From: Gemmatimonadota bacterium
GTDB taxonomy: Bacteria; Gemmatimonadota; Gemmatimonadetes; Longimicrobiales; Gaopeijiaceae
DNA: 8,121 nucleotides
Reading direction: 5' to 3'
Assembly (NCBI GenBank): GCA_016209995.1
Contig: JACQVC010000307.1
Location: 1-8,121, forward strand
Below, piece by piece: positions 700 through 7,721 of this stretch. The notes beneath the pieces were generated by a model, which did no database searches, was not told where the DNA came from, and saw only the letters and a list, made by a program, of their open reading frames with translations. Numbering within the stretch: the first letter of the stretch is position 1; every line of letters begins with the position of its first letter. The translations under genes were made by a program, and so were the position numbers.

Positions 700-906
700 T
701 TACGCCGCTTCGCCGTCTTTGACGACGTAAGCCGCGCACAGCCTCTTGGGATTTACGTACAGCTCCCGCAACACGTCGGGGTCCTCGCGCAGCATGTCGA
801 CCACGCGCTCGTAGCGCGCCAACGCCTCGCTCGGCACGCTCACATCCTCGTGGTGATAGACCCCGCGGTCCGCGAACAGCAGGCGGATCGTCGTACGCTC
901 AGCCAC
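700..906 (-). CDS. Small conserved-looking protein of unknown function, 68 aa
   Basis: I do not recognise this family. The protein is soluble, 68 residues, with no signal peptide or membrane segment. A short beta-like N-terminus (TTIRLLFADRGVYHHEDV) is followed by a charged helix-like region (residues 26-46, rich in E, R and D) and a C-terminal stretch with YVNPKRLCAAYVV. Its single Cys is Cys57. The start is GTG, preceded by a GGAGG Shine-Dalgarno with a four-base spacer. It overlaps the end of the VKOR-like gene by 8 bases and lies 30 bases before the mlaE start, so co-translation with both neighbours is likely. The tight spacing, good ribosome site and codon use like the neighbours argue that it is real. 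A function cannot be given from sequence; a role in either the redox pair or the lipid transporter would be guesswork. Confidence 0.72.
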   Translation of the reverse strand: MAERTTIRLLFADRGVYHHEDVSVPSEALARYERVVDMLREDPDVLRELYVNPKRLCAAYVVKDGEAA

Positions 907-1381
907 GCGGCCTCCGCATGCGGCCGAGCTCGGGGATGGATGAGAAGAAGATGAGCGTGATCAGGACCGCGGACACGACGCACCACTGGCACCACGCGTG
1001 CAGCACGAAGGCCTCGATGTAGGTAAGGTAGCCCGTGAAGAGAATTCCCAGCGTCGAACCCGCGACGAGCAGCTGCGGGACCCAGGTCGCGAATCCGAAC
1101 GCCGGCTGCAGACCGAGCAGAGCTAGCGCGAACAGGAGAACGTACCCGCCGAGGCCGATCGCGGAAACAGGAACACCCGCGATGCGGGCGTAGGAACTAG
1201 CCTGCACGGTCTCGCAGTCGCCGACCCCACAGACCACCGGCCCGGTCAGCCCCAGGTTGGCCAGCAGCAGATACGTCGCGACGAGGATCCCGAAAAGCGA
1301 GAGAAGGGTGATGGCCATCCGATTCAGCGGAGGCGACCACTCCGTGAGCCTGCCGGCCTCGGCGGCGGATGCCTCGATCAC
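899..1381 (-). CDS. Vitamin K epoxide reductase (VKOR) family membrane protein
   Basis: Bacterial VKOR homologues are four-to-five-helix inner-membrane proteins that take electrons from a DsbA-like thioredoxin protein and pass them to quinone, doing the job of DsbB. This 160-residue protein has the full cysteine set: the periplasmic-loop pair Cys51 and Cys56 (VVCGVGDCETV), and the membrane active-site pair Cys131-Q-W-Cys134. The conserved Ser62/Ser63 region (SSYARIAGVPVS) also fits the family. Hydrophobic segments run about 24-44, 74-91, 101-122 and 136-148. The start is GTG, four bases (GTGA) overlapping the natural stop of the upstream DsbA-like frame; this is strong evidence for translational coupling and for a functional link. 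Met22 is an in-frame alternative start but would cost the cytoplasmic N-terminus. It overlaps the next small gene by 8 bases. The family call is secure; the exact redox partner is inferred from adjacency. Confidence 0.93.
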   Translation of the reverse strand: MIEASAAEAGRLTEWSPPLNRMAITLLSLFGILVATYLLLANLGLTGPVVCGVGDCETVQASSYARIAGVPVSAIGLGGYVLLFALALLGLQPAFGFATWVPQLLVAGSTLGILFTGYLTYIEAFVLHAWCQWCVVSAVLITLIFFSSIPELGRMRRPRG

Positions 1382-2094
1382 CCTCCCAGCTCAGCCTCGA
1401 TCAGGTCCCGGAGCGGCCCGTAGTCGGAAACTTGAATCAACCTGCCGTTCATGTACTACGTGGGTGGTCCCTGCACGCCGAGCTGCTCGCCGAGCCGCAG
1501 GTTCGCCGTGACCACGTCTGCGAAGCGGTCGCTCTTCAGGCACGCCTCGAAGGCGCCCGTGTCGACGCCCACGCTGCCGGCATAGTCCACGAAGTCCCCG
1601 GTCGGATTCGTCGCGATCGACCAGCGCGCCTGCTGCCGGAACAACTCGTCGTGGTACTCCCAGTACTTACTCTGCTCACCCGCGCAGCGAGCCGCTCTCG
1701 CGGCCAGGAAGGCGTGCGCGTGGCCCATGAAGAGCGGGAAATCGTAGTAGACGTAGTGGACCTTACCTGTCTCGATGTAGTTCAACGACAGGAACGGCTT
1801 CACGTCGAACGCGAACTTCGCGCACCAGGGACACTGGTAATCGGAGAACTCGAGGATGCGAACGGGTGCCTGCGGATCGCCCTGCCCGACACCCGCCGCC
1901 ATGCTCACGAGAGTGTTCATGTCCTCGATGCCGGCCAGATCGACGGGCTCGGTGACGACCCCGCTCATGGCGCTCGAGCCGAGCGTGTACGCCAGCGTGC
2001 CGATCCCGATGACCCCGACAGCGCCGAGGATGATGTAGAACCGGGTCATGCTCTTCCCTGCCGCCTTGTGCGCGGCTCTATCCTTTTGGGCCAC
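1378..2094 (-). CDS. Membrane-anchored DsbA-family thiol:disulfide oxidoreductase, interrupted by an in-frame TAG
   Basis: Thioredoxin-fold protein that would catalyse disulfide formation outside the cytoplasm. From the GTG at 2094 (SD GGAGGG, seven-base spacer) there is a charged N-terminus, one membrane anchor (about residues 19-39), a linker, then the DsbA domain starting at VRILEFSDYQCPWC; the active site is Cys88-P-W-Cys91. Residues 209-212 (GPPT) carry the cis-proline that packs against the active site. Codon 213 is TAG (1456-1458). The same frame then reads 25 more residues, starting YMNGRLIQVSDYG and ending AELGG, before TGA at 1378-1380, which overlaps the VKOR start by GTGA. That tail is what the family has after cis-Pro (an aromatic, then NG, then a final helix). 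If TAG terminates, the 212-residue product lacks the last strand and helix and is probably unstable. An upstream in-frame ATG at 2190 lacks a ribosome site and is not preferred. The tail residues come from my own translation. Confidence 0.85.
1456..1458 (-). other. In-frame TAG codon inside the DsbA-like gene
   Basis: On the minus strand the codons read GGA CCA CCC ACG TAG TAC ATG AAC GGC, that is G-P-P-T-stop-Y-M-N-G. In DsbA-family proteins the position directly after the cis-Pro-Thr is normally an ordinary, often aromatic, residue. TAG is one base away from TAC (Tyr) or TGG (Trp). Frame is kept on both sides, so this is not a frameshift. A base-call error, a real nonsense mutation or amber readthrough are all compatible with the sequence. 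Confidence 0.9.
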
Positions 2095-5178: not shown

Positions 5179-7721
5179 GCGCCTTCCCCGGAAGGTGCCC
5201 CTTCCCCCGAAGGCTCCTCACCCCATACAACGTTTTCTTGCGTGGGGACCCCGGGCTCGAGCGCCGGCACCTCCGCATCGGCTCCCTCACCGTTCTCGGG
5301 AATGATCCGCGCCACGTCGACCACCGCGTCCCCCTCGTCGAGCGAAACCAGGCGCACGCCCTGCGTGGCGCGTCCGATCTCGCGGATCTCCTTGACGGCC
5401 TGCCGGTTCACCACACCGTTGCGCGTGATCAGCATGACCTCCTCGTCGGGAGCGACCGCCCTGATGCCGACCACATTCCCCGTCTTCCCGGTCGTCTTCA
5501 CGTTGATGATCCCTTTGCCACCGCGCTTCTGCAGGCGATAGTCCTCGATGGGCGTGCGCTTACCCATTCCTCTCTCCATGACGACCAGGAGCGTCGAGGC
5601 CTCAGGCCGAATCACCACCATACCGACTACTTCGTCCTTGGACGACAGGCGAATTCCCCGCACACCGCCGGCCGCGCGCCCCATCTCGCGCGCGTCGTCT
5701 TCGTGGAAGCGGATGGCCATGCCGTTGCGCGTCGCCAGGATCACCTCGTCATTGCCACGTGTGATCTGCACGTCGATCAGCTCGTCGTTGGCGTCCACGT
5801 TGATCGCGATGATCCCGACGGACCGCACGTTGCCGTAGGCCGACAGCGCCGTCTTCTTCACGGTGCCGCGGCGAGTGCAGAAAAGCACGTACTGGTCTTC
5901 CCGGAACTCGCGCACCGGCACCAGAGCGGCCACCTCGTCCCCCGTGCCGAGGGTGAGCAGGTTCACGATCGGCTTACCGCGGCTCGTGCGGCTGCTCTGC
6001 GGGATCTCGTGCACCTTCAGCCAATGACACTTCCCGCGCCGCGTGAAGACCAGCAGGTAGTCGTGGGTCGATGCCACGAACAGGTGCTCGACCCAATCCT
6101 CCTCTTTCGTACCCATGCCCTGGAGCCCCCTGCCACCCCGACGCTGACGGCGGTACGTATCGCTGGGCAGCCGCTTCACGTAGCCGTCGTGACTCACGGT
6201 GAGCACCATCTCTTCGTCGGCGATGAGGTCCTCGACGTTGAAATCGGTCACATCGCCGATGACTTCGGTGCGGCGCTCGTCTCCGTATTTGGCGGCCAGC
6301 TCCTCCAGCTCCTCCCGCACGATCTGCAGCCGGCGCGGGCGGCTGGCCAGAATCTCCTTGAGCCGGCGAATCTCCTTGCGTAGCTCGGTAAGCTCGGCCT
6401 CGAGGTTGCCGATCTCGAGCGCCGTGAGTCGCGCGAGCCGCATGTTCAGGATCGCCTCGGCCTGGCGCTCCGACAGCGCGAACCTTTCCTGCAAGCCTCG
6501 GGCCGCCGTCTCCGAATCCTGCGAGCCGCGGATCAGCGCGATCACGGCGTCGATCTGGTCCACCGCGATCTTCAGCCCCTCGAGGATGTGCTCGCGCTCC
6601 TGGGCCTGGTCCAGCTCGAACTGGCTGCGCCGCTGGATCACCTCGTGCCGATGCTCCAGGAAGTACTCGAGCATCTGCTTGAGGGACAGCACGCGGGGCA
6701 CACCGTCGACGAGCGAGAGCATGATCACGCCGAACGTCGACTGCATCTGAGTGTGCTTGTAGAGCTGGTTCAACACGATGTCCGGGATGGCATCGCGCTT
6801 CAGCTCGATCACGATGCGCAGGCCGTCACGGTCGGACTCGTCCCGCAGGTCCGATACGTCGTTGATCTTCTTGTCGCGCACGAGCTCGGCGATCTGCTCG
6901 ATGAGCCGCGACTTGTTCACCATGTACGGGATCTCGGTCACGATGATGCGCGGCCGGCTCGATTCCGCGTCCTCGACGGACGCGCGCGCCCGCACCAGCA
7001 GGCGGCCGCGACCCGTGCTATAGGCATCGCGGATCCCGTCCCTCCCGCAGATGAACCCGCCCGTCGGGAAGTCCGGCGCCGTGACGATCGTGGCCAGCTC
7101 GTCTCCCGTGATCTCCGGGTTCTCGATCAAGGCCACGACCGCGCTCACGATCTCCCGCAGGTTGTGGGGCGGAATGTTGGTCGCCATACCGACGGCGATC
7201 CCGGAGCTGCCGTTGACCAGAAGGTTGGGGACCCGACCCGGGAGGACCGTCGGCTCCTGGAGGCGTCCATCGAAATTGGGCAGGAAGTCGACCGTATTCT
7301 TGTCGATATCGGCAAGCAGCTCGGTGGCGAGCCCCGCCAGCCTCGCCTCCGTATAGCGGTAGGCCGCGGGGTTGTCCCCATCGATGGAGCCGAAGTTGCC
7401 CTGGCCATCGACGAGCGGGTATCGCATGGAAAAGTCCTGCACCATGCGGACCAGCGCGTCGTACACCGCTATGTCGCCGTGGGGGTGGTACTTACCAAGC
7501 ACGTCGCCAACGACCGTCGCGCTCTTCTTCTGCGGCCGTCCGGGCTGGAGCCCCAACTCGTGCATCGCGTACAGGATACGTCGGTGCACGGGCTTCATCC
7601 CGTCACGCACGTCGGGAAGCGCCCGCTGAACGATCACGCTCATCGAGTAGTCGATGAACGACTCGCGCATCTCGTCTTCGATGAGCCTCGAGATGACCTT
7701 CTCGCCCGATTCCGTAGCCAT
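5175..7721 (-). CDS. gyrA: DNA gyrase subunit A
   Basis: Breakage-reunion subunit of DNA gyrase, which with GyrB introduces negative supercoils using ATP. The 848 residues are complete. The N-terminal winged-helix part holds the catalytic Tyr123 ([10 protein letters not shown]) with Arg122; the quinolone-binding segment is [10 protein letters not shown] (79-88). The tower and coiled-coil follow (about 350-490). The C-terminal beta-pinwheel begins with the GyrA-box QRRGGRG at 526-532, which separates GyrA from ParC, and a degenerate copy QKRGGKG lies at 731-737. The last 45 or so residues are an acidic tail ending in a doubled PSGEGA. ATG at 7721 has GGGA with a six-base spacer. The position of Escherichia coli Ser83 is Ile84 here (codon ATA, 7470-7472), while the acidic Asp87 is kept as Asp88; substitutions at Ser83 are classic quinolone-resistance changes. 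The gene opens a four-gene run and is preceded by a leader with a hairpin. gyrB is not in the window. Confidence 0.98.
5182..5213 (-). promoter_or_regulatory. Tandem hairpin repeats over the dehydratase ribosome-binding site
   Basis: Two near-identical 18-base units (5178-5195 and 5196-5213, 16 of 18 bases equal) encode the doubled PSGEGA at the GyrA C-terminus. In the minus-strand RNA each contains CCTTC...GAAGG, able to fold into a 5-bp hairpin with a four-base loop. The one at 5182-5195 contains the GGGGAAGG Shine-Dalgarno of the dehydratase, three bases before its ATG. It could hide that site until ribosomes finishing gyrA open it. The repeat is directly visible; the regulatory role is inferred. 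Confidence 0.4.

Follow-up and report, generated by a model that had tools for sequence, protein, structure and literature searches.

What does an amber codon signify when it interrupts a DsbA-like gene near its end and the frame behind it still reads as the rest of the protein? The question arises in the window (the whole stretch of DNA analyzed, 8,121 bases), which is contig 245 of a metagenome-assembled genome (MAG; 3.0 Mb, 556 contigs, completeness 76%, contamination 1.8%). Its minus strand carries, in order, gyrA, a threonine-dehydratase-like gene, a peptidase S58 gene, a HAD hydrolase gene, dsbA, a VKOR-family gene, a 68-residue open reading frame, and an MlaE permease gene. The features considered here are listed below, with dsbA codons counted from the ATG at 2049.

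1378..2094, minus strand: DsbA-like gene of the thioredoxin fold (Pfam Thioredoxin_4 and DSBA, homologue alignments, predicted structure)
1822..1833, minus strand: active-site motif C-P-W-C, residues 73 to 76, intact (C73 and C76 invariant in an alignment of 22 sequences)
1465..1467, minus strand: codon 195, CCA (Pro), directly before the cis-proline (each of the 119 other aligned homologues has Thr)
1456..1458, minus strand: in-frame TAG, codon 198 (V, I, L, or F in homologues)
1381..1455, minus strand: 25-residue in-frame tail (final strands and final helix of the predicted fold)
1378..1380, minus strand: TGA, would-be end of the full-length gene (shares GTGA with the VKOR GTG at 1379-1381)
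899..1381, minus strand: VKOR-family gene, intact, 160 residues, predicted redox partner (family match)
700..906, minus strand: small 68-residue open reading frame downstream of VKOR (similar protein 3′ of dsbA in the related genome G055)

The start of dsbA is probably the GTG at 2092-2094, judging from the N termini of relatives and from the 212-residue record P0002, the one sequence, on one contig, by which this dsbA is represented in a single assembly. The predicted N-terminal helix of the protein is likely a membrane anchor. No promoter-like site was found in a scan of 600-2400.

The initial annotation had placed an in-frame amber codon directly behind the cis-proline loop, followed by 25 residues and a TGA sharing the bases GTGA with the start of VKOR, and this description is exact. 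The frame reads ...GVQ-G-P-P-T-TAG-Y-M-N-G-RLIQVSDYGPLRDLIEAELGG-TGA, in which GPPT corresponds to residues 194 to 197 and the TAG follows immediately. The annotation had also taken the tail for the normal end of a DsbA fold and had called for alignment to relatives, and here too the comparison bore it out: homologue sequences continue through this region and match the 25 residues, which align with the five nearest homologues and 16 others. A homologue search returned 510 matches, of which the best 120 were considered, one of them being the window's own sequence; among the other 119, the residue at the TAG site is V in 55, I in 44, L in 19, and F in 1. Some homologues bear names such as Longimicrobiales and Gemmatimonadetes. 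The five nearest (P0003 to P0007, public metagenome proteins with 64 to 68% identity) belong to the same subfamily and share the short tail, but they have GTPT, then Leu or Val, then Tyr, and unlike the window gene they are open through the site. Since the tail aligns and no other stop outranks this one in either of the two scans described below, the position of the TAG within a coding frame is more than chance.

A structural model in which the TAG was read as a residue had a mean pLDDT of 93 and placed the active-site CPWC at the start of a predicted helix (74 to 82), as in a thioredoxin fold. The end of the fold is formed by predicted strands 197 to 200 and 203 to 205 and a helix at 210 to 220, all falling at or after the TAG, such that the fold is complete only if the TAG stands for a residue. 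This supports the earlier suggestion that the tail is needed for folding. The annotation's further suggestion, that a loss here would break translational coupling to VKOR, is consistent with the GTGA overlap. A product ending at residue 197 (212 residues from the GTG start) would be missing the final helix and the two strands before it; it is predicted not to fold and presumably would not work.

As an uninterrupted protein, the window's DsbA would be a familiar one. Directly adjoining VKOR on the same strand through the GTGA overlap, it resembles the DsbA-like Rv2969c of Mycobacterium tuberculosis, a CPXC oxidase whose gene also lies beside a VKOR gene (Rv2968c) and whose product has been proposed to form a redox pair with it (PMC3792642). 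In the scheme proposed for these two proteins, VKOR takes electrons from DsbA, and DsbA in its oxidized form donates a disulfide to proteins that have just been exported (PMC3792642). The window gene differs from Rv2969c as described there: it has CPWC in place of CPAC and Pro in place of Thr214, the residue preceding the cis-proline, and it is interrupted by a stop two codons beyond that proline. Among solved structures, the best relatives are those of Corynebacterium diphtheriae TsdA/DsbA (PDB 7unn, 7uno, 4pwo, and 4pwp), which ranks with the top hits by both profile and fold and, unlike the window gene, is a whole protein without a stop, and BdbD of Bacillus subtilis (PDB 3eu3 and 3eu4). 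The latter has the same fold (TM-score of 0.82 by target length and 29% identity for 3eu4; profile match over positions 70 to 237 of 240). The partner of BdbD is the DsbB-like BdbC rather than a VKOR.

Where related genomes have VKOR, dsbA goes with it: a search of 58 relatives found VKOR in 32, and each of these has a dsbA match on the same strand at most 230 bases from it. Stops were flagged inside the VKOR matches of six relatives, and these were set aside; the aligned stretches hold no stop, and the flags probably fall at or beyond the alignment ends. Of 97 relatives searched for DsbA itself, 96 had a match and one had none. The listed best matches, which cover 93 relatives (three were left out), are free of stops in 92, although these are the best DsbA-family matches and orthology need not hold for all of them.

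The stop is not the only anomaly in this part of the gene. Residue 195, directly before the cis-proline, is Pro in the window and Thr in all 119 other aligned homologues, a departure on which the initial annotation was silent, while the cis-proline itself (Pro196) is present in all 121 aligned rows. A leave-one-out test on 120 sequences gave 51 columns with at least 90% conservation; the window sequence has no gap in any of them and keeps 50, the sole departure being T195P, three codons before the TAG. Departures of this kind are common, with at least one in 96 of the 120 sequences at the 90% level, 23 at the 95% level, and 16 at the 97% level. A single departure is thus not unusual as such, but its position beside the TAG is. 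Because T195P is the only departure and lies three codons away, the stop and its neighbor look like one event, either a few wrong bases in the assembly or a single multi-base mutation.

The codons of relatives point in the same direction. A pattern search in their DNA gave 44 matches, of which 37 have Thr at position 195; the remaining seven were stray matches outside dsbA and were discarded. At position 198, these 37 sequences have codons for Ile (13), Val (22), or Leu (2), which are two changes from TAG in nine cases and three in 28. DNA for the five nearest homologues was not part of this sample, and six fetched relatives had no pattern match. Since the relatives' codons are two or three changes from TAG, a single point mutation is a less natural source of the stop than a corrupted stretch. 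Local repeats, considered as a possible cause of the lesion, comprise two direct and three inverted pairs; no arm covers the TAG, whereas codon 195 falls within an arm of one imperfect inverted pair (82%).

We consider it about an even chance that the TAG and the odd codon 195 are a local assembly or consensus error, a short wrong patch rather than a working feature. The damage is confined to four codons of an otherwise normal gene, the sequence beyond the stop is still recognizably DsbA, the window comes from a fragmented MAG as one of its many contigs, and TAG is a common normal terminator in this genome. A related MAG offers a parallel. In G055 (contig C15, locus L172, about 5357-6022), the only one of the 93 relatives whose listed best match contains stops, a DsbA gene has in-frame TAGs where Trp and Gln are conserved. 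These two codons precede a run of N by 22 and 12 codons, and the reading frame changes beyond that run. An amber habit shared with the window was considered for this gene and rejected, as its two TAGs directly precede the N run; they are likely an assembly fault or contig-end artifact, a sign that in-frame TAGs in a gene of this kind can arise from damage during assembly. Against an error in the window, the sequence around the TAG shows neither an N run nor any other sign of faulty assembly, an identical patch would result from a multi-base mutation in a real cell, and single departures at conserved columns are as common as the counts above indicate. The identity of the tail is also somewhat low: positions 199 to 223 are 58% identical to the five nearest homologues (0.58), whereas these five share 0.76 with one another. 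Constraint on this part of the protein could therefore already have been relaxed. However, decay of the tail is not demonstrated, because the first 50 residues drop equally (0.54 for the window against the five, 0.73 among them).

If the patch is an error, dsbA in the organism itself would be whole. Its product would oxidize exported proteins through the CPWC site, and VKOR would reoxidize it, as proposed for other DsbA/VKOR pairs. The locus is an ordinary dsbA/VKOR pair in which a single patch of dsbA is damaged, and as such it is of little significance beyond a useful caution about single in-frame stops in fragmented metagenome assemblies. One literature search for work treating metagenome-assembled genomes, pseudogenes, premature stops, and assembly errors all together found no paper.

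The strongest competitor, somewhat less probable than an error but still a substantial possibility, is that the TAG is a genuine and very recent nonsense mutation, perhaps made in one multi-base event that also altered codon 195. The truncated protein would then be inactive. A fresh lesion would be expected to leave the gene intact elsewhere, as the conserved columns indicate, and VKOR is intact as well. Two more DsbA-like proteins with intact CXXC, cis-proline, and tail are encoded on contigs G000:C345 and G000:C315, the former (L032) having a second DsbA domain fused to a region that resembles a CcdA/DsbD-type membrane domain. These two whole-looking proteins may partly substitute for the truncated one, and given their presence, loss of the dsbA in the window might be tolerable. 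On the other hand, a single point mutation would leave the other abnormal residue, three codons away, as a coincidence, the codons of the 37 relatives stand two or three steps from TAG, and the constant association of dsbA with VKOR in VKOR-bearing relatives suggests that the pair is kept. On balance, we favor an error over a nonsense mutation.

Far less likely is that the TAG is read through or recoded, by a suppressor tRNA, reassignment of TAG, or programmed readthrough, to give the full-length protein. The tail is conserved and in frame, and one result would fit recoding: the gene for release factor 1 (prfA) was not found in the 76%-complete MAG, where prfB is present. Nevertheless, prfA exceeds the cut-off in 26 of 28 relatives, and its absence here is best put down to a missing part of the genome. 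A change of genetic code was rejected, as TAG commonly serves as a terminator: among 161 open reading frames of at least 150 codons, sampled from 41 of the 556 contigs, TAG ends 48, TGA 92, and TAA 21. A search for an amber suppressor tRNA, proposed in the initial annotation, found none with a CUA anticodon among 22 matches in this MAG; 21 of these were called as tRNAs and one weak match was not, and the set is incomplete. No readthrough stem-loop was found after the stop, and the 83 bases from the TAG onward fold worse than their shuffles (-18.2 kcal/mol, against a shuffle mean of -24.5; z of +1.9). Readthrough also leaves T195P unexplained and is at odds with the stop-free best DsbA-family matches of all but one of the 93 relatives. 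Thus, of the three causes that the initial annotation had entertained, readthrough finds little support in the terminator counts, the incomplete tRNA set, the presence of prfA in relatives, or the folding after the stop, which leaves base-call error and nonsense mutation.

Nor did the contigs sampled yield a second gene interrupted in this manner. Two scans of 41 contigs (262 kb) looked for stops flanked on either side by coding-like codons, and the dsbA TAG ranked first in each. In the first, another TAG (L146, position 2966, minus strand) scored nearly level with it; in the second, a stricter six-frame scan, dsbA again came first of 19 sites and the L146 site was absent. The runner-up of the six-frame scan, the one of the other 18 sites that was inspected singly, proved an ordinary gene end, and no second in-frame TAG gene was found in the 41 of 556 contigs. 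A recoded DsbA would matter if it were true, although the evidence gathered here argues against one. The caution that the locus offers is that nearby conserved residues and the genome's own use of the stop should be checked before readthrough is proposed. A separate matter is that the same genome encodes SelB (L144, contig G000:C9, 955-2898, minus strand; TIGR00475 over the cut-off for the 200 residues encoded by 2302-2901, the part scanned). It likely uses selenocysteine at UGA, which has no bearing on TAG.

Slightest of all is the chance that ribosomes stop at the TAG and restart at the ATG three bases on (at 1452) to make a separate 24-residue tail reaching the VKOR start, which would preserve the coupling: the sequence TAG-TAC-ATG and the tail frame, open up to the GTGA overlap, allow it, but 6 of the 119 other aligned homologues likewise have Met at position 200, which needs no special role, no relative except G055 has a stop among the 93 with a listed best match, and we know of no precedent for a thioredoxin fold built of 197 plus 24 residues. 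It is correspondingly improbable that this is a real, kept stop, with DsbA made in two joining pieces of which the second carries the ribosome to the VKOR start and so ties VKOR output to termination inside dsbA.

The small protein encoded downstream of VKOR (700-906, minus strand) is an observation in its own right. Pfam and NCBIfam gave no match for its 68 residues, and it appears as a conserved neighbor, with a counterpart 3′ of dsbA at the L172 locus of G055.
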